Shown: piece after piece, positions 28,598-60,869 of the stretch
Layout: every line of letters starts with the position of its first letter
How positions within the stretch are numbered: position 1 is the stretch's first letter
The notes under the pieces: generated by a model
Database searches by the model: none
What the model saw: only the letters and a program-made list of their open reading frames with translations
What the model was told of the DNA's origin: nothing
Origin: Kribbella voronezhensis
Lineage (GTDB): Bacteria; Actinomycetota; Actinomycetes; Propionibacteriales; Kribbellaceae
Direction: 5' to 3'
DNA length: 64,000 nt
NCBI RefSeq assembly: GCF_004365175.1
Contig: NZ_SOCE01000001.1
Coordinates: forward strand, 3,975,403 to 4,039,402
Translations under genes and position numbers: made by a program

Positions 28598-28634
28598 TGA
28601 AGCGCTTCACTGTGACTAGCTTGAAGCGCTTCAA
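28598..28634. promoter_or_regulatory. Two LacI-type operators
   Basis: TGAAGCGCTTCA (28598-28609) and TTGAAGCGCTTCAA (28621-28634) are perfect palindromes with centres 24 bp apart. A TTGACA -35 element (28582-28587) precedes the first. They lie 55-90 bp upstream of the amidohydrolase start and about 85-120 bp upstream of the lacI-type start, allowing control of both. Confidence 0.85.
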
Positions 28635-28688
28635 AGCGGCGCGGACTGCCAAGTTGGACCGAGTCGAGATCGAGTGGGAGGGGTGCTG

Positions 28689-36991: not shown

Positions 36992-37081
36992 GTGAGCGCC
37001 GAGAACATCGCAGGCCTCGTGGTCGCCACGGCCCTGGTCCTGTACCTGCTTGCCGCCCTGGTCTTTCCCGAGAGGTTCTGA
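36992..37081 (+). CDS. kdpF: KdpF, small subunit of the K+-transporting ATPase
   Basis: A 29-residue single-span hydrophobic peptide ([20 protein letters not shown]..., ending FPERF) directly before kdpA. GTG start at 36992; the stop overlaps the kdpA ATG by one base (TGATG). KdpF stabilises the KdpABC complex. Size, composition and position are diagnostic. Confidence 0.93.
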
Positions 37082-38742
37082 TGTCCGACACCGCCGCCGG
37101 CCTGCTCCAGGTCGGCCTCCTGATCGCGCTCCTGGCCGCCGCCTATCGGCCGGTGGGCGGCTATCTGGCCCACGTCTACACCACCGAGAAGGACTCCCGG
37201 ACCGAGCGTGGCATCTACAAGCTGCTCGGTGTCGACGCGAAGGCGGAACAGACCTGGGCCGTCTACGCCCGGTCGGTGATCGCCTTCTCCGTCGTCGGGG
37301 TCGTCTTCCTCTACCTGCTGCAGCGACTGCAAGCACACCTACCGCTGTCCCTGGGGCTGCCGAACGTCGGGTCCGGCCTGGCGTTCAACACTGCCGCTTC
37401 CTTCGTCTCGAACACGAACTGGCAGTCGTACTCACCCGAGGCGACGCTGGGCCACCTGGCCCAGTTCGCCGGTCTCGCGGTGCAGAACTTCCTCTCCGCC
37501 GCCGTCGGCATGGTCGTCGCGGTCGCGGTGATCCGCGGCTTCGCCCGCTCGACAACGGACCGGCTCGGCAACTTCTGGGTCGACCTGGTCCGGACCGTAC
37601 TGCGAATCCTGCTGCCGCTCGCCGTCGTCGGAGGCCTCGCTCTGGTCGCGATGGGTGTCGTCCAGAACTTCTCCGGCGGTCATGAGGTCACCTCGGTGAT
37701 CGGCCAGACCCAGACGATCCCGGGTGGTCCGGTCGCCAGTCAGGAGGTGATCAAAGAACTCGGCACGAACGGCGGCGGCTTCTACAACGCCAACTCGGCG
37801 CACCCCTTCGAGAACCCCAACGGCCTGTCGAACCTCTTCGAGATCTTCCTCCTGCTACTCATCCCAGTAGCCCTGACCCGCACCTTCGCCCTGATGGTCA
37901 ACGACAAGCGGCAGGGCTACGCGATCCTCGGCGTGATGGGCACCTTGTGGGCGGCCTTCACCTTCGCCGCCACCTTCTTCGAAACCCAGGGAGCCGGTAC
38001 TGCGACGCAAGCGGCCGGCGCCGCGATGGAGGGCAAGGAGACCCGGTTCGGTGAGTGGGCCTCGGCCCTCTTCGCCTCCTCGACGACCGGCACGTCGACC
38101 GGCGCGGTGAACTCGGCCCACGACTCGTTCACCCCACTCGGCGGCGGCACTGCTCTGTTCCACATGATGCTCGGTGAAGTCAGCCCCGGCGGAACGGGCA
38201 CGGGCCTGTACGGAATGCTGGTCCTTGCTGTCCTCACGGTGTTCGTGGCCGGCCTGATGGTCGGCCGGACCCCGGAGTACCTGAAGAAGAAGATCACCGT
38301 GCGCGAGATGAAGCTGGTCTCGCTGTACATCCTGGCGACGCCGACCGTCGTACTGGTCGGTGCCTCACTGGCGATGGGACTGGCGAGCGCGCGGGCGTCG
38401 ATCTTCAACACCGGCAGCCCGCACGGGTTCACCGAAGTGCTGTATGCCTTCACGTCGGCCGGGAACAACAACGGCAGTGCGTTCGGTGGCCTCAGCGCGA
38501 ACATCCCCTTCTACAACACGGCTCTCGGGCTCGTGATGCTGATCGGCCGGTTCGTGCCGATCGTCATCGTGCTCGCCTTGGCCGGCTCCTTCGCGCAGCA
38601 GACGCCGGTGCCGGTGACTCAGGGCACGCTGCCCACCCACAAGCCCCTGTTCGTGACGCTGCTGATCGGCGTCGTCCTGATCGTCACCGGGCTCACCTAC
38701 TTCCCAGCACTCACCCTCGGACCCCTCGCGGAGGGACTGTGA
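37081..38742 (+). CDS. kdpA: Potassium-transporting ATPase subunit KdpA
   Basis: A 553-residue polytopic membrane protein with ten or so spans and the four K+-selectivity P-loop regions, including [32 protein letters not shown] and SNTNWQSY. It is the K+-binding channel-like subunit of the high-affinity P-type pump. Its TGA overlaps the kdpB GTG (GTGA). Confidence 0.98.
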
Positions 38743-40829
38743 CCACCGCCCTGAAGACCCCCGCAACGCCGCCCCTGGCCGAGCAGGTCGCGACCAAGAC
38801 GCTCTCTGGCCTGTTCGACCCGACGATGCTGCTCACCTCGCTGCCGGACGCCCTGCGCAAGCTCGATCCGCGGGTGATGGTGAAGAACCCGGTGATGTTC
38901 GTGGTCGAGGTGGGTGCCGTCGCGTCGACGGTTCTCGCCTTCACCGACTCCAGCGTGTTCGTCTGGTGGATCGTGGTCTGGCTCTGGCTGACCGTCGTCT
39001 TCGCCAATCTGGCCGAGGCCGTCGCCGAAGGGCGCGGCAAGGCTCAGGCGGCGACGCTGCGCCGTGCCAAGACCGAGACAACCGCCCGCAAACTGTCCGC
39101 GGACCGGCTGACCGAGCAGGAGGTGCCGGCCGCGTCGCTCCAGCTGGGCGACCTGGTGGTGGTCGAAGCAGGTCAGATCATCCCCGGCGACGGTGACGTG
39201 GTCGAAGGCGTGGCCAGCGTGGACGAGTCGGCCATCACCGGCGAATCGGCGCCCGTGATCCGCGAGTCCGGCGGCGACCGGAGTGCGGTCACCGGTGGCA
39301 CGAAGGTGCTCTCGGACCGGATCGTCGTCAGGATCACCACCAGGCCGGGCGAGAGCTTCATCGACCGGATGATCGCCCTGGTCGAAGGGGCCTCCCGGCA
39401 GAAGACGCCGAACGAGATCGCCTTGAACATCCTGTTGGCGAGCCTGACCATCGTGTTCCTGATCGCGACGGCGACGCTGCCGACCTTCGCGGCCTACGCT
39501 CACACCGACCTGAGCCTCGTCATCCTGGTGGCCCTGCTGGTCTGCCTGATCCCGACCACCATCGGGGCCTTGCTGTCGGCCATCGGGATCGCCGGGATGG
39601 ATCGGCTGGTCCAGCGCAACGTGCTGGCGATGTCCGGACGCGCGGTCGAGGCCGCCGGTGACGTGAACACCCTGCTGCTCGACAAGACCGGGACGATCAC
39701 GCTGGGGAACCGGCAGGCCGCCGAGTTCATCCCGCTGGCCGGAATCACCGAGACCGAACTGGCCGACGCTGCACAGTTGTCCAGCCTGGCCGACGAAACG
39801 CCGGAGGGCCGCTCGATCGTGGTCCTGGCGAAGACGGGGTACGGGCTGCGGGCGCGGCACACCGGTGAGTTGCCGCAGGCAACGTTTGTCGAGTTCACGG
39901 CGCAGACCCGGATGAGTGGGGTGGACCTGGACGGCCGGCAGATCCGCAAGGGTGCGGCCGGCGCGATCGCTTCCTGGATCGACGACCAGGGCGGCGCTGT
40001 CGTGTCCGAGCTCGGGGAGATCGTCGACGGCATCTCGGCCTCCGGCGGTACCCCGCTGGTGGTTGCCATCAGCAAGGAAAGCGTGGCCCGACCGCTCGGC
40101 GTGATCCATCTCAAGGACGTCGTCAAGGAAGGCATGCGGGAGCGGTTCGACCAGCTGCGGGCGATGGGCATCCGGACCGTGATGATCACCGGTGACAACC
40201 AGTTGACCGCCAAGGCGATCGCCGAGGAGGCCGGGGTCGACGACTTCCTGGCGGAGGCGACGCCCGAGGACAAGCTGGCGCTGATCAAGCAGGAGCAGGA
40301 AGGCGGCCGACTGGTCGCGATGACGGGAGACGGGACCAACGACGCTCCCGCGCTCGCGCAGGCCGATGTCGGGGTGGCGATGAACAGCGGTACGTCGGCC
40401 GCCAAGGAAGCCGGCAACATGGTCGATCTGGACTCCAATCCGACCAAGCTGATCGAGATCGTCGAGATCGGCAAGCAGTTGCTGATCACCCGGGGCGCGC
40501 TCACGACCTTCTCGATCGCCAACGACGTCGCCAAGTACTTCGCGATCCTGCCCGCGCTGTTCGCGGCGGCGTACCCGGGGCTGGACGAACTGAACATCAT
40601 GCAACTGCACTCGCCGGAGTCGGCGATCGTGTCGGCCATCGTGTTCAACGCGCTGGTCATCGTGGCGCTCGTGCCGCTGGCGCTGCGAGGCGTGCAGTAC
40701 AAGCCGTCCTCGGCGTCCGCGATGCTGCGCCGCAACCTGCTGATCTACGGCGTCGGCGGCCTGATCACCCCGTTCATCGGCATCAAACTCCTCGATCTGG
40801 TGATCTCGCTGATCCCGGGTATCCGCTGA
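38739..40829 (+). CDS. kdpB: Potassium-transporting ATPase ATP-binding subunit KdpB
   Basis: A 696-residue P-type ATPase. The TGES loop (167-170), phosphorylated Asp315 in DKTGT, a KGAAGAI nucleotide site and the hinge [20 protein letters not shown] are all intact. It drives K+ import through KdpA. GTG start with 4-bp overlap to kdpA; 27 bp to kdpC. Confidence 0.98.
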
Positions 40830-40856
40830 CTGTGCCGAGCTGAAAGGGCAACAGAC

Positions 40857-41504
40857 ATGACAAGCAGACTCCCCGCGACGATGCGGCAGATCGGGGTGGC
40901 GACCCGGGCGCTGATCGTGTTCACGATCGGCCTGGGGGTGATCTACCCGCTGGCGATGACAGGAGTGGCGCAGGTGCTGTTCCACGGCAACGCCAACGGC
41001 TCGGTGATCCAGGTGAACGGCAAGGATGTGGCCTCCGACCTGATCGGCCAGGCGTACACCGAGCAGGCGACCAAGGACGGCAAGCCCGAGGTCGATGCCG
41101 ACGGCAAGCCGGTGATGGTTGCCGACCCGCTGTGGTTCCAGACCCGGCCCTCCGCGGTGGACTACGACGCGATGGGCAGCGGCGCCTCGCAGTACGGGCC
41201 CAACAATGACGAACTGCTCGCCGCGATCCAGCAGCGCCGGAAGGCTGTGGCCGACCTGGAAGGGGTCGATCCGGCCCAGGTGCCGCCGGATGCGCTCACC
41301 GCCAGCGGCAGCGGGCTCGACCCGCAGATCAGCCCCGCGTACGCCGCGTTGCAGATCAACCGGGTTGCGAGGGAGCGCGGACTCGGCGTCGCCGAGGTGC
41401 GACAGTTGGTGAAGGAGAACACGTCGGGGCGCACCTTGGGCTTCCTCGGGGAACCTACGGTCAACGTGGTCACGTTGAACGCCGACCTTGCCGCACTGAG
41501 CTGA
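40857..41504 (+). CDS. kdpC: Potassium-transporting ATPase subunit KdpC
   Basis: A 215-residue protein with one N-terminal membrane span (about 14-38). It has the KdpC hallmarks LIGQAYT, LWFQTRPSA.DY and SGSGLDPQISPAYA.LQ.NRVA. It stabilises the pump and assists ATP binding. The ribosome site GAAAGGG lies before ATG. It sits 12 bp upstream of kdpD. Confidence 0.97.
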   Translation: MTSRLPATMRQIGVATRALIVFTIGLGVIYPLAMTGVAQVLFHGNANGSVIQVNGKDVASDLIGQAYTEQATKDGKPEVDADGKPVMVADPLWFQTRPSAVDYDAMGSGASQYGPNNDELLAAIQQRRKAVADLEGVDPAQVPPDALTASGSGLDPQISPAYAALQINRVARERGLGVAEVRQLVKENTSGRTLGFLGEPTVNVVTLNADLAALS

Positions 41505-41516
41505 GACGATGGGGAC

Positions 41517-44102
41517 ATGAGTAGCAGCGGCCGTGGGCACCTGAGGGTCTACCTCGGTGCCGCGCCCGGCGTCGGCAAGACCTACAAGATGCTGGGCGAG
41601 GCGCAGCGCCGGCGGGAACGCGGGACGGACATCGTGGTCGGCCTGGTCGAGACGCACGGCCGCGAACAGACCGCCGCGATGCTCGATGGTCTCGAAGTGG
41701 TGCCGCGCAAGATCCTGGACTACCGCGGCGCGAGCTTCACCGAGCTGGACCTGGACGCCGTCCTGGCCCGCCGGCCCGAGGTCGTGCTGGTCGACGAGCT
41801 TGCCCACAGCAACGTTCCGGGCAGCCGGAACGCGAAGCGCTGGCAGGACATCGACGAGTTGCTGATCGCCGGGATCGACGTGATCTCGGCGGTGAACATC
41901 CAGCATCTGGAGTCGATCAACGACGTGGTCGAGAAGATCACCGGCGTACCGCAGCAGGAGACCGTGCCCGACCGGGTGGTCCGGGCCGCGGACCAGATCG
42001 AATTGGTCGACATGACGCCCGAGGCGTTGCGCCGCCGGATGGCGCACGGCAACGTCTACGCGGCGGACAAGATCGACGCTGCCCTGGGCAACTATTTCCG
42101 GGTCGGCAACCTGTCCGCGTTGCGCGAGCTGGCGCTGCTGTGGCTGGCGGATCGCGTCGACGCCGGCCTGCAGCAGTACCGCGCCCAGCACGACATCGAC
42201 TCCACCTGGGAAGCGCGCGAGCGCGTCGTGGTCGCGCTCACCGGCGGGCCCGAGGGCGAGACCTTGATCCGGCGTGCCGCCCGCATCGCCGCCCGCTCGT
42301 CCGGCGGCGACCTGCTCGCCGTCCACATCGCCCGCTCCGACGGGCTGACCGGCGCCAACCCGGCCAAGCTGGCCCAGCAACGTCAGCTCGTCGAGAGCCT
42401 GGGCGGCACCTATCACCAGGTCGTCGGCGAGAACGTCCCGGAAGCGCTGCTGTCCTTCGCGCGAGCCGAGAACGCCACCCAACTGGTGCTCGGCGGCAGT
42501 CGCCGCTCGCGCTTGGCCGCGCTGTTCACCGGTCCCGGCATCGGCGCCAGTTCGCTTCGGGACGCGGGAGACATCGACGTCCACATCGTCACCCACTCGG
42601 AGATGGGCCGTGGCAGGCTGCCGCGGGCGCAGGGCAGCCTTTCCAAGCGCCGCCTGATCTACGGGTTCGTGCTGGCGGTGCTGCTGCCACCACTGCTGGC
42701 CGTGCTGCTGGGTATCGGTGGCGATGCGCTCAATCTGACCAGCAACGCGCTCGCCTTCCTGTTCGCGGTCGTTGTCGTCGCTCTGGTCGGCGGACTTTGG
42801 CCGGCGATCCTGACGGCAGTCGCGGGCACGTTCGTACTGAACTGGTTCTTCACACCGCCCGCGCACTCCTTGACGATCACCGAGCCGAACAACGTGCTCG
42901 CGCTCAGCATCTTCGTGCTGATCGCCGGCCTGGTCTCGTCGGTGGTCGACCGCGCGGCGCGCCGGACCCGCCAGGCGGCCAGATCAGCAGCCGAGTCCGA
43001 GACACTCGCGACCCTGGCCGGCTCCGTACTCCGCGGCGAAACCGCCTTGCCCGCCTTGCTCGAACGGGTCCGGGAGGCGTTCGGGATGACCGGTGCCTGC
43101 CTGATGGAACGACTCGAGACCGACGAGCTGACCGAGACCTGGCGACCCATCGCCTCAGCCGGTACGCCGACCTGCCGGCGCCCGGAGGACGGCGATGCCG
43201 AGATCCCGGGCCGGGACGACCTCGTCCTGGTCCTGCAAGGCCGGTCGCTGGCCGCCGACGAGCGCCGCCTGGTCGGTGCCTTCGCGGCCCACGCAGCAGC
43301 GTTGGTGGACAAGGCCCGGCTCAGCGAGGCCGCTGCCGAGGCGAAGCCGTTGGCCGAAGCAGACAAACTCCGTACTGCGCTGCTTCGTGCGGTGGGCCAC
43401 GATCTTCGGTCCCCGCTGGCCTCCGCCAAGGCCTCGGTGACCAGCCTTCGCAGTTCCGACGTGGACTGGACTCCTGCGGAGCGGGAGGAGTTGCTCGAAA
43501 CAGCAGACGAATCACTGGACCGGCTCACCCGGCTGGTGGACAACCTGCTCGACCTCAGCCGCCTGCAGGCCGGCGTACTGCCGGTGTTCACCCGGCCGAT
43601 GGCGCTGGACGAGATCATGCCCGGCGTACTGGCCGAGGTGGGTGCTGTCGCCGCTGCGGTCAGCGTCGATCTGCCGCACACGCTGCCGTTGGTCGACGCG
43701 GACGCGGCTCTGCTCGAGCGGGTGATCGCGAATCTGCTGGCCAACGCGGTCCGGCACTCGCCGCAGGGACGGCCGCCGCTGGTCACCGGGAGTTCGCTGG
43801 GTGACCAGGTCGAGGTCCGGGTGGTGGATCGCGGGCCGGGGATCCCGCGGGTCGACCGCGACCGGGTGTTCGCGCCGTTCCAGCGGCTCGGGGACACCGA
43901 CAACGCCACCGGGGTCGGTCTCGGCCTCGCGCTCGCGCGTGGGCTGACCGAGGCGATGAACGGCTCGCTGCAGCCGGAGGACACACCGGGCGGTGGGCTG
44001 ACCATGGTCGTATCGTTGCCGGTGGCAACTGTGCGGCCCGGGGACGCGCCGGTCCCCGGCCGTCGTGAGCGGTCCGCGTCCGGTCCGGAGGTGCAGGGAT
44101 GA
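41517..44102 (+). CDS. kdpD: Sensor histidine kinase KdpD
   Basis: An 861-residue sensor kinase. The N-terminal KdpD domain has Walker A GAAPGVGKT (14-22) and VDELAHSNVPGS. A universal-stress-like domain follows (about 240-370), then four transmembrane helices (about 380-480), a GAF-like region and a kinase core with the phospho-acceptor histidine at 628 (AVGHDLRSPLAS). ATP-binding motifs N and G (LLANAVRHS, VDRGPGIP) complete it. It senses low K+/ionic stress and phosphorylates KdpE. The stop overlaps the kdpE start (ATGA). Confidence 0.97.
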   Translation: MSSSGRGHLRVYLGAAPGVGKTYKMLGEAQRRRERGTDIVVGLVETHGREQTAAMLDGLEVVPRKILDYRGASFTELDLDAVLARRPEVVLVDELAHSNVPGSRNAKRWQDIDELLIAGIDVISAVNIQHLESINDVVEKITGVPQQETVPDRVVRAADQIELVDMTPEALRRRMAHGNVYAADKIDAALGNYFRVGNLSALRELALLWLADRVDAGLQQYRAQHDIDSTWEARERVVVALTGGPEGETLIRRAARIAARSSGGDLLAVHIARSDGLTGANPAKLAQQRQLVESLGGTYHQVVGENVPEALLSFARAENATQLVLGGSRRSRLAALFTGPGIGASSLRDAGDIDVHIVTHSEMGRGRLPRAQGSLSKRRLIYGFVLAVLLPPLLAVLLGIGGDALNLTSNALAFLFAVVVVALVGGLWPAILTAVAGTFVLNWFFTPPAHSLTITEPNNVLALSIFVLIAGLVSSVVDRAARRTRQAARSAAESETLATLAGSVLRGETALPALLERVREAFGMTGACLMERLETDELTETWRPIASAGTPTCRRPEDGDAEIPGRDDLVLVLQGRSLAADERRLVGAFAAHAAALVDKARLSEAAAEAKPLAEADKLRTALLRAVGHDLRSPLASAKASVTSLRSSDVDWTPAEREELLETADESLDRLTRLVDNLLDLSRLQAGVLPVFTRPMALDEIMPGVLAEVGAVAAAVSVDLPHTLPLVDADAALLERVIANLLANAVRHSPQGRPPLVTGSSLGDQVEVRVVDRGPGIPRVDRDRVFAPFQRLGDTDNATGVGLGLALARGLTEAMNGSLQPEDTPGGGLTMVVSLPVATVRPGDAPVPGRRERSASGPEVQG

Positions 44103-44776
44103 CCAGGATCCTGGTGGTCGACGACGAACCACAGATCGTCCGCGCGCTGCAGATCAACCTGAAGGCCAGACGGTACGAGGTGCACGTCGCCGGCAGCGGG
44201 ACGGCCGCGCTCAAGGTCGCCGGGCAGTACCCGCCCGACCTGGTGATTCTCGACCTCGGGTTGCCGGACCTCGACGGCGTCGATGTGATTCGCGGGCTCC
44301 GTGGCTGGACCGAGGCGCCGATCCTGGTGCTGTCCGGCCGGACCGACAGCACCGACAAGGTCGAGGCGCTCGACGCGGGCGCGGACGACTACGTGACCAA
44401 GCCGTTCGGCATCGACGAGTTGCTGGCCCGGATGCGTGCGGTACTGCGCCGGAGCAACCTGGCCCAGGACCAGCCGGTGGTCGTCGTCGGCGGTGCCCGC
44501 GTCGACCTGTCGGCGAAGCGGGTGACGCTGGACGGCGGCGAGGACATCCGGCTGACCCCGACCGAATGGCACCTGCTGGAGGTACTGGTCCGGCATCCCG
44601 GCAAGCTCCTGTCGCAGCGGCAACTGCTGACCGAGGTGTGGGGGCCGGGGTACGAGTCGGCCGGCGGCAATCTACGCTTCTACATGGGCCAGCTCCGCCG
44701 CAAACTCGAAGCCGACCCGGCCCGTCCGGCCCATCTGCTGACCGAACCCGGGATGGGCTACCGCTTCGAGCCGTGA
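44099..44776 (+). CDS. kdpE: Response regulator KdpE
   Basis: A 225-residue OmpR/PhoB-type regulator. The receiver has acidic pocket VVDDE, phospho-acceptor Asp52 (ILDLGLPDLDG) and conserved Lys in VTKPFG. The C-terminal winged helix (about 130-225) includes LTPTEWHLLEVLVRHPGKLLS. It activates kdpFABC under K+ limitation, probably through the direct repeats upstream of kdpF. Confidence 0.97.
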   Translation: MTRILVVDDEPQIVRALQINLKARRYEVHVAGSGTAALKVAGQYPPDLVILDLGLPDLDGVDVIRGLRGWTEAPILVLSGRTDSTDKVEALDAGADDYVTKPFGIDELLARMRAVLRRSNLAQDQPVVVVGGARVDLSAKRVTLDGGEDIRLTPTEWHLLEVLVRHPGKLLSQRQLLTEVWGPGYESAGGNLRFYMGQLRRKLEADPARPAHLLTEPGMGYRFEP

Positions 44777-46700: not shown

Positions 46701-47948
46701 GTGCTGATGGGTGACACCTGGGTGCAGTCGCTGATCTCTGCGATCGCCGCTGTGATGGCCGCCGCCCAGCCGATGGTGCCACCCACGCCGATTGCCGGGC
46801 AGCCGCCCGCGCAGGTCCGCAAGGCCGGGAACTGGGTCGGGAGCTGGGCGACCGCGGTCACGCAGGCCGACAGGACGGGGCTGTCCGCGACCGGCGTCGC
46901 CAACACGACGTTGCGGCAGGTGGTGCATCTTTCCGTCGGTGGCAACTCGGTGCGGATCCGGCTGTCCAACCGGTTCGGGACCCGGCCGTTGGTGGTCGGC
47001 CGGACCACCGTCGTGCCCAGCAAGGTCACGGCCGGCGCGACGCCGACCGTCGAGATCCTGCAGATCCTCCCGCTCACCTTCAAGGGCAAGCCGGCCGTCA
47101 CCATCCCGGTCGGTGCCGACGTGATCTCGGACCCCGTCTCGCTGTCCGTCGCGGAGGACAGCGACCTGGTGATCAGCACCTACTTCCCGTCGGCGACCGG
47201 GCCGCTCACGCAGCATCCGGCCGGCTATGCGACCGCCTTCAGCGCGTACGGCGAGCAGACCACGGGTGGCGGCGCGCAGTACCGGAAGATTCCGGGGATG
47301 GCCCGATTCGTCGTGTCCGAGGTGGATGTGCGTGGCTCGGCGAAGGGCGCGCTCGTCCTGTTCGGCGACTCGATCACCGACGGGGCGGCGTCGCCGATGG
47401 ACCGGAACCTGCGCTATCCGGATCAGCTCGCCGACCTGCTTCTCCTGCGCGGGGTCGGTGCCCTGAACGCGGGGATCGCGGGGAACCGGCTGCTCGCGAA
47501 CGCCGGGTCTTCGGGTGAGGCCGCGATCGGGCGGTTCGAGCGCGACGTGGTGCGGCGTACCGGCGTACAGGCTGTCGTGGTGCTGGAAGGGATCAACGAC
47601 ATCCGGCTGACCAGGGGCGCGATCTCGGCGACCCAGGTGATCGCGGCCCATCGGCAGTTGATCGCACGGGCGCATGCGGCCGGCTTGAAGGCGTACGGTG
47701 CGACGCTCACGCCGTACTGGGCCTCCGCGCAGTACACGGTCGGTGGCGAGATCGCGCGGCAGGCCGTGAACCAGTGGATCCGGACCTCGGGTGAGTACGA
47801 CGGGGTCGTCGACTTCGAGGCCGCGCTCCGCGACCCCAAGTCGCCGCTGCAGCTCCTGCCTGCTTACGACTCCGGCGACCACCTCCACCCGAACGCAGTC
47901 GGCTTCACCGCGATGGCCAAGGCCTTCGACCTCAACCTGGTCGGTTAG
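46701..47948 (+). CDS. Secreted SGNH/GDSL hydrolase
   Basis: A 415-residue probable exported esterase. Hydrophobic leader at residues 7-22. An N-terminal beta-sandwich (about 40-200) precedes the SGNH domain: block I LFGDSITDG with nucleophile Ser, block II Gly in GIAGNRLL, block III GINDI, block V DHLHPN with catalytic His. It likely deacylates polysaccharide or lipid. GTG at 46701 lies 10 bp after AGGAGG; an ATG two codons on is possible. Its stop overlaps that of the convergent lyase-like gene (TTAG). Confidence 0.9.
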   Translation: MLMGDTWVQSLISAIAAVMAAAQPMVPPTPIAGQPPAQVRKAGNWVGSWATAVTQADRTGLSATGVANTTLRQVVHLSVGGNSVRIRLSNRFGTRPLVVGRTTVVPSKVTAGATPTVEILQILPLTFKGKPAVTIPVGADVISDPVSLSVAEDSDLVISTYFPSATGPLTQHPAGYATAFSAYGEQTTGGGAQYRKIPGMARFVVSEVDVRGSAKGALVLFGDSITDGAASPMDRNLRYPDQLADLLLLRGVGALNAGIAGNRLLANAGSSGEAAIGRFERDVVRRTGVQAVVVLEGINDIRLTRGAISATQVIAAHRQLIARAHAAGLKAYGATLTPYWASAQYTVGGEIARQAVNQWIRTSGEYDGVVDFEAALRDPKSPLQLLPAYDSGDHLHPNAVGFTAMAKAFDLNLVG

Positions 47949-49366
47949 CCGGATTCGGCTGGGTGTTCCACCTGGCGGTCGCCCCATTGGGTGAGGAGGC
48001 CGCGGGCGATCTCGAGGTCGTCGCGGAGCGAGCGGTCGGTGAGGTCGTCGGGTAGCGCGGCCAAGGCGTCTGCGAGCCAGGGCCCGACCGCGGCCGGGGC
48101 GAGTTGTTCTGGTGAGATGCCGGCCAGCCGGGCTGCGCGGACCGCCGTGACGAGTTCGCAGGAGAGGACGTCTCGGAGCGCGTCCAGCAACTGCGCAGTG
48201 AGTACTGCGGCTTGCGGGGCGAAGCTTGCGTGGTGTTCGGCGCCCCGGCTGAGGGTCGCCGTGCCCAGCGTCGCCGGTTGCGCGGTGGACCGGACCGAGG
48301 CGAGCGCGTCGTGAGCGACGTACTCGATCATCATCACGCCGGAGCTCGCCTCGGCTCCGCTCGCCAGGAACCGGCTCAGTCCGGTGAACTCCGGATCGAC
48401 CAGGTTCGCGACGCGCGAGGTGGACAGCGTCGCCACGCTGTGCAGGCTCAGCCGCAGTGAGTCCAGGGCGAGCGCGATCGGCATCGCGTGCCAGTTTCCG
48501 TTGTGCAGCACGGTGTCGCCGGCGACCAGCGGGTTCTCGGCCGAGGCGTTCAGGTCGATCATCAAAGCGTTGCCCAGGGCATCGACATGGTCGACGGCGG
48601 GTCCGAGCACCTGAGCGAAGGCGCGCAGACCGAAGGGATCCTGGATCCGGGCCGGCGGGAGCGGTAGCTCGTCCAGCAACCCACGCATCCGGCGGGCGAC
48701 CCGGACCTGCCCTGGTTGCGGGCGCGCCTCGTGCACCCGCACGTCGTACACCTCGGCGTTGCCGCGGAGCGCGACGTGGGAAAGAGCGCCCACCAGCGGT
48801 ACTACGTTGATCAGGGTGGCCGCTTCGACGTACGCGAGGCAGGTGTCGGCCAGCGTGAGTGCGTTGCTGGAGAGCAGGGGGAGTGCGCTGGTCCCGTCGA
48901 TCACGTCGCCGAGTGCGAGCCCGAGCTCCGCGAGCGGGCCGAGGTCGCCGGTGCCGATCGCGCCACCGCGGTGCAGGTCGGGCAGGTTGTCGTCGTTGAG
49001 CAGGCCGACGATCGCGTCGGCGACCTCCGGTGCGAGCCCGGAGCCGCCGGTGGCCAGTTGGTTGACCCGGATCAGCAGGCCGAGGCGAACGACTTCCTTG
49101 GGGTACGACGTGGTCCCGGTGGTCGAGTGCGAGGCGAGCAGCCGGGCGCCGTGTTCGGGATCGTTGGTCAGCACGTCCCGGTTGGCGCCGACGCCGGTCG
49201 TCCGTCCGTACACCGGCCGACGCAGAGCGATCTCCGCGACGGCAGCGGCCGAGTCGGCCATCTTCTTGCGGGCGGTCTCGGCCAACTGCACCGGCGTCCG
49301 CCGCTGCCCGAGCGAGACCGCGTCCAGCGGCGTCAGCCCCACCCCGGAAATCTCGATCGGCTCCAC
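47945..49366 (-). CDS. Aromatic amino-acid lyase family protein lacking the MIO triad
   Basis: A 473-residue homologue of histidine/phenylalanine ammonia-lyases (VYGRTTGVG, NQLATGGSGL, RIQDPFGLR, ENPLV). The Ala-Ser-Gly triad that cyclises to the MIO electrophile is Gly138-Thr139-Gly140 (AIGTGDLGPLA). The tyrosine equivalent to Tyr280 of Pseudomonas HAL is Phe245. Tyr53 and Arg248 are kept, and a Glu is present near the usual Glu414 position (GAEHHAS). Threonine at the Ser site is not expected to form MIO, so classical ammonia elimination is unlikely. The start is taken as GTG at 49366; the ribosome site is weak and ATG at 49411 is possible. The role is unknown. Confidence 0.8.
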   Translation of the reverse strand: MEPIEISGVGLTPLDAVSLGQRRTPVQLAETARKKMADSAAAVAEIALRRPVYGRTTGVGANRDVLTNDPEHGARLLASHSTTGTTSYPKEVVRLGLLIRVNQLATGGSGLAPEVADAIVGLLNDDNLPDLHRGGAIGTGDLGPLAELGLALGDVIDGTSALPLLSSNALTLADTCLAYVEAATLINVVPLVGALSHVALRGNAEVYDVRVHEARPQPGQVRVARRMRGLLDELPLPPARIQDPFGLRAFAQVLGPAVDHVDALGNALMIDLNASAENPLVAGDTVLHNGNWHAMPIALALDSLRLSLHSVATLSTSRVANLVDPEFTGLSRFLASGAEASSGVMMIEYVAHDALASVRSTAQPATLGTATLSRGAEHHASFAPQAAVLTAQLLDALRDVLSCELVTAVRAARLAGISPEQLAPAAVGPWLADALAALPDDLTDRSLRDDLEIARGLLTQWGDRQVEHPAESG

Positions 49367-50412: not shown

Positions 50413-50661
50413 TTACGAAGCCTTGCCGTAGCGCTTGTTGAACTTCTCCACGCGGCCCTGGGTGTCCATCACGCGCTGCTGGCCCGTGTAGAACGGGTGG
50501 CTGGCGGACGAGATCTCGACGTCGACGACCGGGTAGGTGTTCCCGTCGTGCCACTCGATGGTCTCGGTGCTCTGGCGTGTCGAGCCGGTGAGGAAGCTGA
50601 AGTTGCCGGACTTGTCCCGGAAGACGACCCGGCGGTAGTCGGGGTGGACGTCCTTCTTCAT
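50413..50661 (-). CDS. rpmE2: Ribosomal protein bL31, type B (zinc-free)
   Basis: An 82-residue type-B L31. It lacks the Cys-x2-Cys zinc ligands of the type-A form, has the type-B start [10 protein letters not shown], and ends in FNKRYGK. It replaces zinc-binding L31 under zinc starvation, freeing zinc. Its ATG overlaps the stop of the CobW-like gene (ATGA), so both are controlled by the Zur box. Confidence 0.97.
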
Positions 50662-51758
50662 GCTGCTGCACTTCCTTCCAGATAAGGGGCGAACGGATCG
50701 GTCAGCTGGCTTACCGATTCATCCGCACGAAGGACACAACCATCCAGGCGGCGCTCTAATTCCCAGATGTCCAGATCGATTCCGGTGATGGACAGGTACG
50801 ACGCCCGGTCGCCGTGCTCGGGGTGCCACTCCAGTGCCGAGCGGGCCTGATGGGTCCGGCCCACCTCGGACCAGCGGTCCGCCGGCAGGTCCGCCAGCCA
50901 GCGGCCCAGTACGCCGAGGGAGATGTTCGTACCGAAGCTGTCCCAGCCGAGCCGGAGGTCCGGCCGCGAGGCGAGCCAGACCGTCCCCTTGCCGCGGGCC
51001 GTCCCGGCGACCAGGTCCTCGAGGGCGTCGTACAGGCGTTCGGGGTGGAACGGCCGGGTGGACTGCCAGACGAGCGTGCGGACCCGGCCGCCGTCCTGCA
51101 GTGGTGCCGTGATGGTGCCGGGCTCGACCCAGGTCTCCGCCGTGCCGGGATCATGCAGCCGTACGCCGAGCAGGCCGGCCGGGTCGGTCCGGACCAGCGC
51201 CTGCGGGTTGATCGCCCGGGCCAGCGCCGCGACCGTTTCGTCGGGGTTGCTCAGAATCACCGCGTTGGCGTACTCGAGCTGACGGGCGACCACTTCGGCG
51301 ATCGCGCGGCCGTCCTCGGCGGCGGTCGGGATGCCGCGGTCGTGAATCAGGTCCTCCCCGGTCAGGTCGGTGACAACCGTCTCGGTGTCCAGAACGGTCA
51401 GTACGGCGTCCACCCGGAGCTCGTCGCTGCCGTCGCGGGCGATCTCCTCGGCCAGCGCCTGGGTGTCGCCTGCGCCGGGGACCGACACGATCACTGCTTC
51501 GTACTTGCCGGTCGCGGCGATGCTCAGGAGAAGCGAGACCAGCGAACCGCGCATCGCGCAGGAGACACAGGGGTGGCCCATCCGGATCACCTCCTCGTCG
51601 ATCACGCCGGCCGAGCTCCGCGCGATCCGGATGACGGAGCCGCCGGCGAGACCGCTCACGTCGTACTCGACAAGTACTGCGCTGGAAGTCAGCAGGGTGG
51701 TCGCGACGGCGTTCCGGCTGGTCTCGTCGACCCCTGTCAGCAGGGTGACCGGCAGCAT
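50658..51758 (-). CDS. CobW/COG0523-like protein of the zinc-starvation operon
   Basis: A 366-residue COG0523-type protein. The typical metal-site motif GCVCC is represented by [10 protein letters not shown], and the C-terminal CobW_C domain is present ([13 protein letters not shown], WEPxH-like EWHPEH). The P-loop is degenerate ([18 protein letters not shown], no GxxGxGKT), so GTP binding is doubtful. The family delivers zinc to client proteins. The start at 51758 lies just inside the Zur-box promoter; it is the first gene of the operon with rpmE2. Confidence 0.85.
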
Positions 51759-51775
51759 GGCGTCTCCCGTCTTAT

Positions 51776-51790
51776 TGAAAATGATTACCA
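51776..51790. promoter_or_regulatory. Zur box in a divergent promoter
   Basis: TGAAAATGATTACCA is a 7-1-7 imperfect palindrome matching the actinobacterial Zur site (TGAAAATGATTTTCA type). It lies between the CobW-like gene and rpmG, and overlaps the likely -35 TTGAAA (51775-51780) of a rightward promoter with -10 TACACT (51797-51802). Zinc-bound Zur here would shut both operons. Confidence 0.88.
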
Positions 51791-51894
51791 GTAGCGTACA
51801 CTGCTCAGGACGGCTGGGAATACCGGACTCCACTCCCGGTGTTCACCGTACCCAAGCATTCGACGGCGTCCCGACGCCTGGAAGGAAAGGTCAG

Positions 51895-52062
51895 ATGGCC
51901 AAGCGCGACGGAGTTCGCCCGATCATCAAACTGCGGAGCACCGCGGGCACCGGGTTCACCTACGTGACCCGGAAGAACCGGCGCAACGACCCCGATCGGC
52001 TGACCCTCAGCAAGTACGACCCGAAGGTCCGCCACCACGTCGAGTTCCGCGAGGAGCGGTAA
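51895..52062 (+). CDS. rpmG: Ribosomal protein bL33 (zinc-free paralogue)
   Basis: A 55-residue L33 ([16 protein letters not shown]..., [12 protein letters not shown]) with none of the four zinc-binding cysteines. It substitutes for the zinc form when zinc is scarce. Strong GGAAGGAAAGG ribosome site. It lies 5 bp upstream of rpsN and downstream of the Zur box. Confidence 0.97.
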
Positions 52063-52067
52063 CGGGC

Positions 52068-52373
52068 GTGGCGAAGACCAGCAAGATCGCCAAGAACGAG
52101 CAGCGCAAGAAGACAGTGGCCCTGTACGCCGGGCGCCGGGCGGAGCTGAAGCGGATCATCGCCGATCCGGCCAGTTCGTTCGACGCCCGTGGCGAGGCGC
52201 AGCTGAAACTGCAGAGGCTGCCGCGGGACGCGAGCCCGATCAGGGTCCGCAACCGCGATGTCGCTGACGGCCGACCCCGTGGGTTCCTCCGCAAGGCCGG
52301 GATCTCCCGGGTCCGGTTCCGCACGATGGCGCACCGGGGTGAGCTCCCCGGGATCACCAAGTCGTCCTGGTAG
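52068..52373 (+). CDS. rpsN: Ribosomal protein uS14 (zinc-free, long form)
   Basis: A 101-residue S14 of the long, cysteine-free type ([14 protein letters not shown]..., [25 protein letters not shown]). It replaces the zinc-binding short S14 under zinc limitation. GTG start. It follows rpmG within one Zur-regulated transcript. It converges on the IclR gene with one base between stops. Confidence 0.97.
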
Positions 52374-52374: not shown

Positions 52375-53133
52375 TCAGCCGTGCAGCCGGCGCGTCAGCG
52401 CGTCGGCTGCCTGTTTCGTCCGGCGGGCCAGCGCCGGGATCGCTTCGGGCGGGACGGATTCGGTCCGGAACGTGACGCTGATCGCGGCGACCGGGTGGCC
52501 GACATGATCGACGGCGGCGGTCGCCACCGAGGCGAATCCCGGCGTGATGTGGGATTCCTCGATGGCGTATCCCTGCCGCCGCTCGTCCGCCAGGAGGCGC
52601 CGCAACTGGCTCAGAGTCTGCGGGCCGGCGTCGGTACGCCGTACAAAGCTTTCCGGGGTTGGGAACAGGGCCCGCACCTGCGGAGCGGGGAGTTCGGCGA
52701 GGAGGGCGCGGCCGGATGCCGTCAACGTGGCCGGCAGCCGTACGCCGACGTCGGTGACCAGCGTGACCGGGCGGGGTGGCTGTTCTTTCAACAGGTACAC
52801 GAGTTCGCGGCCGTGCAGGACGCCGAGGTGGGCGGTCTGGCCGACGTCGGCGACGAGCTGGGCGAGCAGCGGCCGGGCCAGTCGTTCGAGCGGATCGTGC
52901 CGTAGATAAGCGGATCCGATCTCGAACGCGGCGACGCCGAGCCCGTACCGCTTCTCCTCCGGCAGGTGGACGACGAAGCCCTCACTGATCATTGCCTTGA
53001 GCAAGTGATAGGTGGACGAGCGCGGCAGGCCGACCGCGGAGGCGATGCGCTCCATCGGTACCGGACCGGGCTGGGTGGCCAGGAACGTCAGTACCCGCAA
53101 GGTGCGGGTCGAGGCGGGAACGTTGCCGCTCAC
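52375..53133 (-). CDS. IclR family transcriptional regulator (possible hut regulator)
   Basis: A 252-residue IclR-type protein. N-terminal winged helix (RTLRVLTFLATQPGPVPMERIASAVGLPRSSTYHLL) and C-terminal effector domain ending VAAISVTFR. GTG start. It lies near hutH and hutU; IclR-family regulators commonly control aromatic or histidine catabolism. A perfect 6-6-6 dyad (55114-55131) precedes hutH and could be its site. Target assignment is inferred from position. Confidence 0.88.
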   Translation of the reverse strand: MSGNVPASTRTLRVLTFLATQPGPVPMERIASAVGLPRSSTYHLLKAMISEGFVVHLPEEKRYGLGVAAFEIGSAYLRHDPLERLARPLLAQLVADVGQTAHLGVLHGRELVYLLKEQPPRPVTLVTDVGVRLPATLTASGRALLAELPAPQVRALFPTPESFVRRTDAGPQTLSQLRRLLADERRQGYAIEESHITPGFASVATAAVDHVGHPVAAISVTFRTESVPPEAIPALARRTKQAADALTRRLHG

Positions 53134-55131: not shown

Positions 55132-55205
55132 GGAAGTGGGTGGGGGTGCTATCCGGCGGGGGTGGGGCGCGGTGCAATGGGCTGGTGCAGACAGCAGAGG
55201 TGATT

Positions 55206-56729
55206 GTGGGCGTCGGGCCGTTGAGTGCGGGCGACGTCGTGGCGGTGGCGCGGTACGGCGTGCCGGTGCGGATCGATGATCAGGCGCTCGAGCAGATCGC
55301 GAAGTCGCGGGCTGCGATCGAGGCGCTCGCCCATGCGGAGACCCCGCACTACGGCGTGTCCACCGGCTTCGGGGCGTTGGCGACGCGGCATATCGCGCCC
55401 GAACTCCGGGCTCAGCTCCAGCGCAGTCTGGTCCGGTCGCACGCGGCCGGTTCGGGGCCGGAGGTCGAGACCGAGGTGGTCCGAGCACTCGCGCTACTGC
55501 GCCTGTCCACGCTCGCGACCGGCCGGACCGGGGTCAAGGTCGAGACAGCGCAGGCGTACGCCGGGCTGCTGAACGCTCAGCTGACTCCCGTCGTGCACGA
55601 GTACGGCAGCCTCGGTTGCTCGGGCGACCTCGCTCCGCTCTCGCACGTTGCTCTCGCGGTGATGGGGGAGGGCCAGGTCCGCGATGCCGACGGCAACCTC
55701 CGCGATGCCGGTGAAGCGCTCCAGGCCGCCGGGCTCAAGCCGGTCGTGCTCGCCGAGAAGGAAGGTCTCGCGCTGATCAACGGCACCGACGGCATGCTCG
55801 GCATGCTGCTGCTCGCGCTCGCCGACCTCGACCGCCTGCTCAAGACCGCCGACATCGCGGCCGCCATGAGTGTGGAAGGCCAGCTCGGCACCGACCGGGT
55901 GTTCGCCGCGGACCTGCAGGCGCTCCGCCCGCACCCGGGGCAGGGCGCGGCCGCCGCCAACCTGCGCGCAGTACTGGCTGACAGTGCGATCGTCACCAGT
56001 CACCGTGGGCCGGACTGCAACCGGGTCCAAGACGCCTATTCCTTGAGGTGTTCGCCGCAGGTGCACGGTGCTGCCCGCGACACCTGTGCGCACGCGGCGA
56101 CTGTGGCCGGCCGTGAGCTGGCCGCGGCGATCGACAACCCTGTGGTTCTGGAAGACGGTCGCGTCGAGTCCAACGGAAACTTCCACGGCGCGCCGGTCGG
56201 TTACGTGCTCGACTTCCTCGCGATCGCCGTCGCCGACGTGGCCAGCATCAGCGAACGGCGGACGGACCGGTTCCTCGATGTCGCCCGCAACCATGGGCTG
56301 AACGCCTTCCTGGCGGACGATCCCGGAGTCGACAGCGGGCACATGATCGCGCAGTACACGCAGGCCGCGATCGTGTCCGAGCTCAAGCGGCTCGCCGTAC
56401 CGGCCAGCGTCGATTCCATCCCGAGCAGTGCGATGCAAGAAGACCACGTCTCGATGGGCTGGTCGGCCGCTCGCAAGCTCCGCAAGAGCATCGACGGTCT
56501 CCAGCAGGTGATCGCCGTGGAGATCCTGACCGCGGCGCGCGCCCTCGACATGCGGGCACCGCTGGAGCCGTCGCCCGCCACAGCCGCAGTACGGGCTGTA
56601 CTGCGTGAGCATGTCGAGGGCCCCGGTACCGATCGGCACCTCGCGCCCGAGATCGCGCACTCCGTCCGGCTCGTTGCCGACGGCACCTACTTGTCCGCTG
56701 TCGAGGCCGTCACCGGCCCGCTGTCCTGA
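55206..56729 (+). CDS. hutH: Histidine ammonia-lyase
   Basis: A 507-residue enzyme converting histidine to urocanate and ammonia, the first step of the hut pathway. The MIO triad is Cys138-Ser139-Gly140 (GSLGCSGDLAPLSH), the normal actinobacterial form. Tyr49 (HYGVSTGFG), DAYSLR with the catalytic Tyr and Arg, and QEDHVSMG with catalytic Glu are intact. GTG at 55206 has AGAGG five bases upstream; GTG at 55185 is an alternative adding seven residues. It lies 31 bp upstream of hutU, in one operon. Confidence 0.96.
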   Translation: MGVGPLSAGDVVAVARYGVPVRIDDQALEQIAKSRAAIEALAHAETPHYGVSTGFGALATRHIAPELRAQLQRSLVRSHAAGSGPEVETEVVRALALLRLSTLATGRTGVKVETAQAYAGLLNAQLTPVVHEYGSLGCSGDLAPLSHVALAVMGEGQVRDADGNLRDAGEALQAAGLKPVVLAEKEGLALINGTDGMLGMLLLALADLDRLLKTADIAAAMSVEGQLGTDRVFAADLQALRPHPGQGAAAANLRAVLADSAIVTSHRGPDCNRVQDAYSLRCSPQVHGAARDTCAHAATVAGRELAAAIDNPVVLEDGRVESNGNFHGAPVGYVLDFLAIAVADVASISERRTDRFLDVARNHGLNAFLADDPGVDSGHMIAQYTQAAIVSELKRLAVPASVDSIPSSAMQEDHVSMGWSAARKLRKSIDGLQQVIAVEILTAARALDMRAPLEPSPATAAVRAVLREHVEGPGTDRHLAPEIAHSVRLVADGTYLSAVEAVTGPLS

Positions 56730-56760: not shown

Positions 56761-58416
56761 ATGTCCGGACCACGTCCCGTTCGCGCCCCTCGCGGTACCA
56801 CCCTCACCGCCCGCGGCTGGCAGCAGGAAGCCGCGCTGCGGATGCTGCAGAACAACCTCGACCCCGAGGTCGCGGAACACCCTGACGAGCTCGTCGTGTA
56901 CGGCGGCTCGGGCAAGGCTGCTCGCGACTGGAACTCGTTCGACGCGATGGTGCGCACGCTGACCACGCTGAAGGACGACGAGACGATGCTGGTGCAGTCC
57001 GGCCGGCCGGTCGGCGTCATGCAGACGCACGAGTGGGCGCCGCGGGTGCTGATCGCGAACTCCAACCTGGTCGGCGACTGGGCCAACTGGGAGGAGTTCC
57101 GCAAGCTGGAGGCGATGGGGCTCACGATGTACGGCCAGATGACGGCCGGGTCGTGGATCTACATCGGCACCCAGGGGATCCTCCAGGGCACCTACGAGAC
57201 GTTCGCCGCCGTCGCGGCGAAGAAGTTCGGCGGCTCGCTGGCCGGCACGATCACGCTGACCGCCGGACTCGGCGGCATGGGTGGCGCGCAGCCGCTCGCG
57301 GTGACGATGAACGACGGCGTCGCGATCTGCATCGACGTGGACGACTCCCGGATCAAGCGGCGGATCGAACACCGGTACCTCGATGTGCAGGCGACCTCGG
57401 TCGACGAGGCGCTCCGGCTGGCCGAGGAGGCCAAGGCGGCCCGCAAGCCGTTGTCCATCGGCGTTCTGGGCAACGCGGCGTCGATCGTGCCGGACCTGCT
57501 GCGGCGCGGCGCGCCGATCGACATCGTGACGGACCAGACCTCGGCGCACGATCCGCTGATGTACCTGCCGGTGGGAGTGGAGTTCGAGGACTGGACCACG
57601 GCCCGCGAGAAGGACCCGGCCGGTTTCACCGAGCGCGCCCAGGAATCGATGGCACGGCACGTCGAGGCGATGGTGGGCTTCCAGGACGCGGGTGCCGAGG
57701 TGTTCGACTACGGCAACTCGATCCGCGACGAGGCCCGCAAGGCCGGGTACGCACGAGCTTTCGAGTTCCCCGGCTTCGTACCGGCGTACATCCGGCCCTT
57801 GTTCTGTGAGGGGAAGGGCCCGTTCCGGTGGGCCGCGTTGTCGGGCAACCCGGCCGATATCGCCAAGACCGACCAGGCGATCCTGGAGTTGTTCCCGGAG
57901 AACGAGCATCTGACCCGGTGGATCAAGATGGCGCAGGAGCGGGTCGCGTTCCAGGGGCTGCCGGCCCGGATCTGCTGGCTGGGCCAGGGCGAACGGGACA
58001 AGGCCGGCCTGCGGTTCAACGACATGGTTGCCTCCGGCGAGCTCGAGGCGCCGATCGTGATCGGCCGGGACCACCTGGACACGGGCAGCGTGGCATCGCC
58101 GTACCGGGAGACCGAAGGCATGCTGGACGGCTCGGACGCGATCGCGGACTGGCCGCTGCTGAACGCGATGGTGAACGTCTCCAGCGGTGCCTCCTGGGTC
58201 TCGATCCACCACGGTGGTGGCGTCGGGATGGGCCGGTCGATCCACGCCGGTCAGGTATCGGTTGCCGACGGCACCGAGCTGGCCCGGCAGAAGCTGGAGC
58301 GGGTGCTCACCAACGACCCGGGGATGGGCGTGATTCGGCATGTGGATGCCGGGTACCAGCGGGCGGAAGAAGTCGCTGCTGAGCAAGGAGTCAGGATCCC
58401 GATGCGGGAAAGCTGA
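56761..58416 (+). CDS. hutU: Urocanate hydratase
   Basis: A 551-residue urocanase converting urocanate to imidazolone propionate with bound NAD. It has [15 protein letters not shown]-binding [23 protein letters not shown] and [11 protein letters not shown]. Full length for the family. It follows hutH by 31 bp. The next gene is 143 bp on, beyond a small dyad. Confidence 0.98.
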
Positions 58417-58559: not shown

Positions 58560-59560
<1,001 letters not shown>

Positions 59561-59564
<4 letters not shown>

Positions 59565-60217
59565 CCTGGATCGGTGACAACCTCGGGCTGATCTGGGAAC
59601 AGTTGCGCGAACATCTCTATCTGGCGATCCTCCCGGTGCTCCTCGGGTTGATCATCTCGGTGCCGCTGGGCTACATCGCCACCCGGTACTCCTGGCTGGC
59701 GAACCCGCTGATCGCGTTCGGCGGCGTGCTGTACTCCTTGCCGTCGATCGCCCTGTTCATCGTGATTCCGGCGATTCTCGGCACCAAGGTGCTGTCCACG
59801 ATCAACATCATCGTCGCGCTGACGATCTACACGGTCTCGCTGCTGATCCGCAACGTGATCGACGGACTCCGTTCCGTGCCGCCCGACGTCCGCCAGTCGG
59901 CGGTCGCGGTCGGGTACGGCACGTTGCACCGGGTGATCGCGGTCGACCTGCCGATCGCCGTACCGGTGATCTTCACCGGCCTGCGGGTGGTCACGGTGGC
60001 CAACATCTCGATGGTCAGCGTCGGCGCCGTGATCGGCATCGGCGGCCTGGGGGAGCTGTTCACGCTCGGCTTCCAGAAGGACTTCCTCACCCCGGTGGTG
60101 GTGGGCGTCGTGCTGTCGTTGCTGCTGGCCCTGCTGGCCGACCTGGTCCTGGTCACGTTGCAGCGGATCCTGACCCCGTGGGCGCGAGTCGCGACCCCGG
60201 TGGGAGAGGTGGCCTGA
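59561..60217 (+). CDS. ABC transporter permease (OpuCB/ProW type)
   Basis: A 218-residue permease with about six helices and the EAA-like loop SAVAVGYGTLHRVIAVDLPIAVP. It pairs with the second permease to form the channel. The start is set by the ATGA overlap at 59561. It is followed after one base by the second permease gene. Confidence 0.93.
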
Positions 60218-60218: not shown

Positions 60219-60869
60219 ATGTGGGAGTACCTCACCGACTCGTACAACTGGTCCGGGAACGAGGGCATCTGGGCCCGGATCCTGGAGCACCTCTGGTACA
60301 CGTTCGCCGCTCTCGGGCTGTCCGTGGTGATCGCTCTGCCGATCGGTCTGCGAATCGGGCACACCCGCCGGGGCGCGTTCCTGGCGATCAACCTCGGCAA
60401 CGCCGCCCGCGCCCTGCCCAGTCTCGGCCTGCTGATGATCGCCGTCCTGCTGACCAACCAGATCGGCTTCCTGCCGGTGCTGATCGCGCTGGTCGCCCTC
60501 GGGATCCCGCCGATCCTCGCCTCGACGTACGCCGGTCTGTCCGGTGTCGATCCGGCCACGATCGACGCGGCGCGGGGGATGGGCATGACCGGTGGCGAGA
60601 TCCTGACCAAGGTGGAGATCCCGATCGCGCTGCCGCTGATCATCTCCGGCGTCCGCAGCGCCACCCTGCAGATCGTCTCGACCGCGACGATCGCGGCGCT
60701 GGTATCGCTCGGCGGCCTCGGCCGCTACGTGGTCGACGGACTGAAGCTCCGTGACTTCCCACAGATGTTCAGCGGCGCGCTGCTGGTGGCCCTCCTGGCG
60801 ATCCTGCTCGACGCGATCTTCGCGCTGATCGGCCGGGTCACCGTGTCCAAAGGATTGAAGATCGGCTGA
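60219..60869 (+). CDS. ABC transporter permease (OpuCD/ProW type)
   Basis: A 216-residue permease with about six helices and EAA-loop DAARGMGMTGGEILTKVEIPIALP. Two distinct permeases are usual for OpuC-type systems. It is 82 bp upstream of the substrate-binding protein gene. Confidence 0.93.
   Translation: MWEYLTDSYNWSGNEGIWARILEHLWYTFAALGLSVVIALPIGLRIGHTRRGAFLAINLGNAARALPSLGLLMIAVLLTNQIGFLPVLIALVALGIPPILASTYAGLSGVDPATIDAARGMGMTGGEILTKVEIPIALPLIISGVRSATLQIVSTATIAALVSLGGLGRYVVDGLKLRDFPQMFSGALLVALLAILLDAIFALIGRVTVSKGLKIG

Follow-up and report, generated by a model that had tools for sequence, protein, structure and literature searches.

The gene at 47945-49366 on the minus strand of a 64,000-nucleotide stretch of the Kribbella voronezhensis genome (contig NZ_SOCE01000001.1, positions 3,975,403 to 4,039,402; hereafter the window) encodes a homologue of the aromatic amino acid lyases that belongs to a real and conserved actinobacterial clade. 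Members of this clade have lost the residue triad from which the electrophile 4-methylideneimidazole-5-one (MIO) is formed. They are probably active enzymes, and the reading that we favour, and hold to be reasonably probable, is that they are MIO-free lyases that split hercynine into trans-urocanate and trimethylamine and so feed the histidine utilization (Hut) pathway.

The lyase clade and its MIO site

The window lyase is a complete PF00221 protein of 473 residues with a GTG start at 49366. It scores 311.4 bits against the Pfam model (cut-off 27.3) and misses both NCBIfam cut-offs for HutH, with 252 bits against 524 and 239 against 539. The canonical HutH of the same window (55140-56729, plus strand), which lies 5.8 kb away and carries Cys-Ser-Gly in the loop GSLGCSGDL, clears these cut-offs with 692 and 640 bits. 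The predicted structure of the window lyase has a predicted local distance difference test score (pLDDT) of 93.6 and a predicted template modelling score (pTM) of 0.93, and its structural matches span nearly the whole length. With the Pfam score, this bears out an earlier note on this DNA, made from the letters alone, that had described an ammonia-lyase paralogue. The coordinates, strand, Gly138-Thr139-Gly140, Tyr53, Phe245, Arg248 and nearby normal HutH that it reported were likewise all correct on re-reading.

At the MIO site the loop of the window lyase reads GAIG-TGDL, one residue shorter than that of HutH, and no Xaa-Ser-Gly triad is left. The codons for Gly138-Thr139-Gly140, at the triad site, occupy 48947-48955 on the minus strand (counted from the start codon at 49366). 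The replacement of the triad by Gly-Thr-Gly, as the note had it, is thus confirmed, with the refinement that a one-residue deletion is also involved and not substitution alone; the MIO-forming serine has either been lost or, in the shortened loop, given way to Thr139. The clade pattern is G-x-I/V/L-G-T-G-D, against G-S-L-G-C-S-G-D in HutH. Residues were counted in 136 sequences, i.e., the distinct strings among the Gly-Thr-Gly (GTG) type rows of a protein set limited to 380-620 residues; 32 are from Kribbella, and one gene (L056) is included twice with different starts. Thr139 is present in 135/136, the sole exception (L060) being disrupted in that region, Gly140 in 128/136 and Asp141 in 136/136; GTGD is found in 128/136, with GTAD or GTSD in 7 more. 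One protein labelled as MIO-type by pattern (L123) was returned to the GTG group once its loop was read. The alignments A1-A3 hold selected members (20, 38 and 37), and the invariance at positions 139-141 in A2 and A3 is partly circular, since most of their members were chosen by the TGD motif. Changing the MIO serine to alanine lowers the activity of histidine ammonia-lyase (HAL) and phenylalanine ammonia-lyase (PAL) more than 1000-fold, according to PMC3903478. The window lyase is therefore very unlikely to be an MIO enzyme, the absence of MIO being deduced from its sequence.

The positions that in HAL act as the base, as the holder of the carboxylate and as neighbours of the imidazole are strictly conserved in the clade. 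Tyr53 is invariant in the 131 sequences with a residue aligned there (131/131), and Gln242, Arg248 and Glu377, the last equivalent to Glu419 of HutH, are each present in 136/136, so that the retention of Tyr53 and Arg248 seen by the note in one protein extends to the whole clade. Similarly, Ser79 (131/132) and His80 (132/132) are kept where a residue is aligned; five rows (L056, L058, L059, L060 and L062) have none at Tyr53, and four of these have none at 79-80 either. PMC3903478 gives Ser-His as the HAL signature, FL as that of PAL and HL or HQ as that of tyrosine ammonia-lyase; the clade has the Ser-His aromatic-binding signature of HutH.

Three changes relative to HutH are specific to the clade and found in 136/136 sequences: Ser166 for the Asn of L-N-G-T (Asn199 in the window HutH), a change absent from the earlier note, Glu277 for the Asp of D-N-P, and His288 for the Ser of S-N-G-N. 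Positions 245 (Phe/Tyr) and 292 (Trp/Phe) differ among members. The note had reported a change of the second catalytic tyrosine (Tyr280) to phenylalanine; the window protein does have Phe245, but this is not a clade trait because 34/136 sequences hold Tyr, the others being Phe (101) and Ala (1). Outside Kribbella (n = 104) the counts are Phe 69, Tyr 34 and Ala 1. With about a quarter of the sequences keeping Tyr, a fixed change is ruled out. The conservation pattern is the same in the 104 non-Kribbella sequences as in the full 136.

With the predicted model as query, the ergothionase structure 6s7j was the top match in Foldseek (E 4.8e-27). It was also first in VIA-align (Z 42.7, root-mean-square deviation 2.4, 462 residues aligned), followed by tyrosine aminomutase (3kdz, Z 41.5) and the HAL structures 7tqr (40.4) and 1gk2 (39.6).

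All 38 searched genomes of the family (one genus, the window's genome included) hold the lyase without internal stops, so within the genus the gene is not a product of chance or decay; the other 37 copies are 85-99% identical to that of the window. The order-level search found it in 47/245 genomes (the 38 of the family plus 9) and the class-level search in 29/394, the window genome and three of the order's nine being counted in both. In a scan of named genomes at least 574 stretches were confirmed and 80 of them kept, 65 of these outside Kribbella; named relatives with 87-99% identity mark the window genome as a Kribbella, and genera among the kept matches include Streptomyces, Lentzea, Amycolatopsis, Saccharothrix, Pseudonocardia, Actinoallomurus and others. 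Five matches from outside the genus (G050, G387, G496, G539 and the second copy in G484) contain stop codons; these seem to lie near the C-terminal end, since the frames from those loci are still 441-508 residues long.

Filtering at 70% identity reduced 247 proteins to the 57 rows of a tree in which the 43 rows of the GTG clade form one side of a branch with 100/100 support. HutH-type rows lie on the opposite side, together with MIO-free rows of a second type, GYL, and this grouping suggests most simply that the MIO triad was lost more than once. The note had proposed such a mapping of triad variants; HutH-type and GYL rows are compared here with the clade, ergothionase not being among the rows.

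Hut operons, transporters and the proposed hercynine reaction

In four hut operons the lyase stands in for HutH. It comes after hutU-AllC-hutF-hutI, with all five genes on one strand, in Actinomycetospora chibensis (L124), Pseudonocardia endophytica (L132) and A. termitidis (L095/L178), and the order in the genome G090 (L208) is AllC-hutF-hutI-hutU-iclR-lyase-MFS, where MFS is a major facilitator superfamily transporter. In Sphaerisporangium (L125), the lyase and a hutU-AllC-hutF-hutI set that is accompanied by an RpiR regulator are oriented divergently. HutH is encoded elsewhere in the genomes of L124 and L132. The lyase is the only PF00221 match (E 1e-20) in A. termitidis (G607, L095), one of 44 genomes in a search that covered 44 of the 65 non-Kribbella loci, and in G090 (completeness 100), one of 33 genomes searched; the other 43/44 and 32/33 have at least one further match. 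Beside the A. termitidis operon (L095:11425-17507) are N-methylglutamate-pathway-like genes (GltB-like, FwdC-like, amidotransferase-like and type III glutamine synthetase) and an amine-oxidase-like gene, a set expected if methylamines arise there.

The five linked HutU proteins that were scanned (L095, L125, L111, L208 and the window) all pass the urocanate hydratase model TIGR01228 and fail the thiourocanate hydratase model NF058530, with 299-678 bits against a cut-off of 930. Because of these scores and of the presence of the lyase in hut operons, its product is most likely urocanate.

Marker genes were counted around 34 lyase loci of 33 genomes (15 genera) from the class and order searches. 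A transporter of the betaine/quaternary-amine (QAT) type, with ATPase and binding protein, lies beside the lyase in 23/34 loci (10/15 genera), HutU near it in 13/34 (5/15), an amidohydrolase with a cysteine-dioxygenase-like cupin in 10/34 (7/15), and at least two egt genes in 2/34 (1/15). One added locus (G519) has the QAT transporter, HutU, AllC and HutF, which brings QAT to 24/35 and HutU to 14/35. Among 20 random 20-kb windows of the same genomes, none has the QAT transporter and one (L233) has any marker, namely hut genes; part of L233 falls within the region taken for a lyase locus (L211). Fisher tests of the 34 loci against the random windows gave p = 2.6e-7 for QAT, 0.006 for HutU, 0.005 for amidohydrolase with cupin and 0.39 for egt, values that are only a guide since related genomes are not independent. 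At the 65 named non-Kribbella loci, QAT (ATPase and binding protein) was found in 10, HutU in 8 and MFS in 15. The MFS transporter is of the sugar type, and it adjoins the lyase in 2 of the 34 sampled loci. Linkage to hut genes occurs in both transporter contexts, for example with MFS in L208 and with QAT in L189. In Prescottella agglutinans (L136:4300-12900), two lyase-MFS pairs stand in tandem, with hutU 7 kb beyond.

Hercynine is N,N,N-trimethyl-L-histidine, whose trimethylammonium is a good leaving group, and it is made by EgtD. EgtD was found in 23/30 tested lyase genomes, Kribbella included; these 30, like the 19 tested for GmaS (below), are a chosen set. Egt genes lie 1-10 kb from the lyase in five loci, namely Actinoallomurus L111, L112 and L116 and, in one further genus, L188 and L192. 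L111, L112, L188 and L192 have the full egtA-D set, and L116, where the stretch ends, has egtB-D. EgtA, EgtC and EgtD from L111 and EgtB from L112 score above the respective NCBIfam cut-offs, and one lyase of the L188/L192 genus pairs with an Actinoallomurus lyase on the tree.

In the reaction that we propose, hercynine would enter through the linked transporter or be synthesised in the cell by its EgtD. Tyr53 would take its beta proton, Arg248 would hold the carboxylate, and His80 and Glu377 would hold or protonate the imidazole, the roles of single residues being those that we presume from HAL. The positively charged trimethylammonium would leave without the electrophile that ammonia needs, and the resulting trans-urocanate would then be degraded by the Hut enzymes. 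The amidohydrolase and cysteine-dioxygenase-like module, which adjoins the lyase in seven of the sampled genera and, in the Actinoallomurus lineage, is close to egt genes, might strip the sulfur from ergothioneine to yield hercynine. An MIO-independent lyase comparable to ergothionase, as the note had suggested, is thus supported by motif, conservation, fold rank and neighbourhood, with the activity itself predicted only; its other suggestion of a hydratase finds nothing in the present data to support it.

Several points weigh against a hercynine lyase. The activity is a prediction. The ergothionase structure leads 3kdz by only 1.2 Z units, and the nearest solved relative in a sequence search is a HAL and not ergothionase. 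Three of the 34 sampled loci, and 27 of the 65 named non-Kribbella loci (13 of them Lentzea), have no marker at all. QAT-type transporters beside hut genes can also import histidine (HutXWV), and the QAT linkage is therefore no proof of a betaine. Moreover, 7/30 tested lyase genomes lack egtD and would depend on imported hercynine, and 16 egtD regions in other lyase-bearing genomes contained no lyase, transporter or module (0/16). Egt linkage is thereby ruled out as a general feature and is, as far as seen, confined to one lineage. Finally, GmaS, of the downstream methylamine route, was detected in 5/19 tested genomes and was not found in Kribbella; methylamine use was rejected as a general partner of the lyase, the GmaS-type enzyme and N-methylglutamate-pathway-like genes of A. 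termitidis being one case.

Alternative substrates and functions

Among the alternatives, the cleavage of ergothioneine to thiourocanate and trimethylamine by an ergothionase fares best, although we regard it as unlikely. Ergothionase has the same fold and the same loss of MIO, its structure being the top fold match; egtABCD lie near the lyase in one lineage, and the cupin and amidohydrolase of 10/34 sampled loci might handle the sulfur. However, the five linked HutU are urocanate hydratases that score below the thiourocanate hydratase cut-off, and a route from ergothioneine through the latter enzyme was rejected on these scores. No thiourocanate hydratase was found in 396 genomes of the phylum, which is no proof of absence since the control genomes were silent too. 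The lysine that we take to be one of four essential catalytic residues in the Treponema denticola ergothionase could not be aligned; its expected position holds Met or Leu in 136/136 sequences.

A shade less probable is the use of another betaine or modified histidine, or of several such substrates across the QAT and MFS contexts. The occurrence of two transporter types (QAT in 23/34 sampled loci, MFS in 2/34 of these and in 15/65 of the named collection) and the variation of Phe/Tyr245 and Trp/Phe292 between members are consistent with it, but the imidazole-side residues are invariant, and the hut linkage occurs in both contexts (L208 and L189).

We give still less weight to a true histidine ammonia-lyase independent of MIO. 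The lyase is the sole PF00221 match and has a hut operon position in G607 and G090, and it matches HAL at the Ser-His and Glu positions. Ammonia would nevertheless have to leave histidine without MIO, and the loss of the MIO serine has the more than 1000-fold effect on HAL and PAL given above (PMC3903478). A second histidine enzyme would also usually be redundant, because nearly all the tested genomes (32/33 and 43/44) keep another PF00221 match. Were histidine itself deaminated in this way, an electrophile long held essential would be dispensable, and two genomes would have hut operons whose sole lyase is free of MIO. The note's further suggestion of a regulatory pseudo-enzyme without catalysis could draw on the loss of both the MIO triad and the equivalent of HutH Asn199, but we reject it as very improbable, since the expected acid/base and carboxylate-binding positions (Tyr53, Gln242, Arg248 and Glu377) show no variation among the residues aligned in the 136 distinct sequences, and the gene is part of hut operons in genomes where it is the sole PF00221 match.

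If the clade does act on hercynine, then a large group of actinobacterial proteins, placed with the ammonia-lyases by general family models, would perform a second, sulfur-free release of trimethylamine; in the parts of the literature seen, such release from histidine betaines is otherwise tied to a few ergothionases. Hercynine, an intermediate of ergothioneine synthesis, would be linked to histidine breakdown, with a sink for it in organisms that have ergothioneine genes and a microbial source of trimethylamine in soil. Genomes with both HutH and the MIO-free lyase, and the two without HutH, would then offer a natural comparison for what MIO does. Among the papers listed in a search of the open-access literature, with most subscription papers outside its scope, none was recognisable as dealing with this clade or with a hercynine lyase.

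The Kribbella window and known relatives

The order of genes in the Kribbella window is lyase, IclR, HutH, HutU, QAT transporter, AllC-like and HutF. The IclR-family regulator (52375-53133, minus strand) has homologues that adjoin hut genes in other genera. The genes that follow HutH are on the plus strand, beginning with HutU (56761-58416), which is over the TIGR01228 cut-off and under that for thiourocanate hydratase. The QAT-type ATP-binding cassette (ABC) transporter comprises an ATPase (58560-59564; 309 bits with the proV model, slightly below the cut-off of 327), a first permease within the open reading frame 59375-60217 (similarity match near 59.5 kb), a probable second permease (60219-60869), assigned only by its position between ATPase and binding protein, and an OpuAC-type substrate-binding protein (60952-61878). 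An allantoate-amidohydrolase-like (AllC-like) enzyme, a frequent member of such hut clusters, is encoded at 61875-63068, and a hutF-like gene (63062-64000, start approximate) is cut by the window end. On the side opposite the hut genes, 17.7 kb from the lyase, is the module that adjoins the lyase in other genera: a LacI-family regulator (27502-28938, minus strand; true start probably near 28515), an amidohydrolase (PF04909; 28674-29597, plus strand) and a cysteine-dioxygenase-like cupin (PF05995; 29671-30273, plus strand). The egtA-D genes of Kribbella are on the same contig as the lyase, 1.8 Mb distant.

The Kribbella genome has a third PF00221 protein (L002, G000:C1:2830081-2831367), with the MIO site GAGSAGEI (Ser-Ala-Gly then Glu) and Ala-Arg where HutH-type proteins have Ser-His. 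L197 and L211 fall in its tree clade; at these loci a copy of this kind is less than 20 kb from hut genes and a GTG lyase. Elsewhere in the window, a CobW-type GTPase (50658-52373) resembles a ribosome-hibernation recruiting factor with a score under the cut-off, and it adjoins apparent alternative ribosomal protein genes, S14 included (by eye), a zinc-starvation pattern. A kdpABCDE potassium-transport operon was recognised by eye at 37081-44776.

Three known groups can be compared with the clade. The GYL-type lyases (Klebsiella plasmid L174, Rhizobium L214, Agrobacterium L216, Sciscionella L089/L120 and Saccharopolyspora L143) are likewise of the PF00221 type without the MIO triad, their site reading GSVGYL or GSAGYL, and are candidates for an ergothionase-like function. 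They have ABC transporter neighbours in L174, L214 and L216 and adjoin a GTG lyase in L089, L120 and L143; the Klebsiella gene, carried by an IncHI1B plasmid, has an ABC transporter on one side and hut genes on the other. They differ from the GTG clade in grouping with HutH-type rows across the 100/100 branch. HutH (Pseudomonas putida 1b8f and the window HutH) shares with the clade the fold, Ser-His, the Tyr53, Arg, Gln and Glu positions and, as the likely product, urocanate, but the clade lacks the MIO triad and has Ser166 for Asn, Glu277 for Asp and His288 for Ser. Ergothionase, according to PMC13405746, works without MIO and has been definitively identified in only few microorganisms. The T. 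denticola enzyme (6s7j) resembles the clade in its HAL/PAL fold, as the best fold match, in a histidine betaine as the expected substrate and in the lack of MIO, which is stated for ergothionase in that source and deduced from sequence for the clade. It differs in being only 24-26% identical to the window lyase and in its sulfur-bearing substrate, whereas the clade is linked to urocanate, and not thiourocanate, hydratases.

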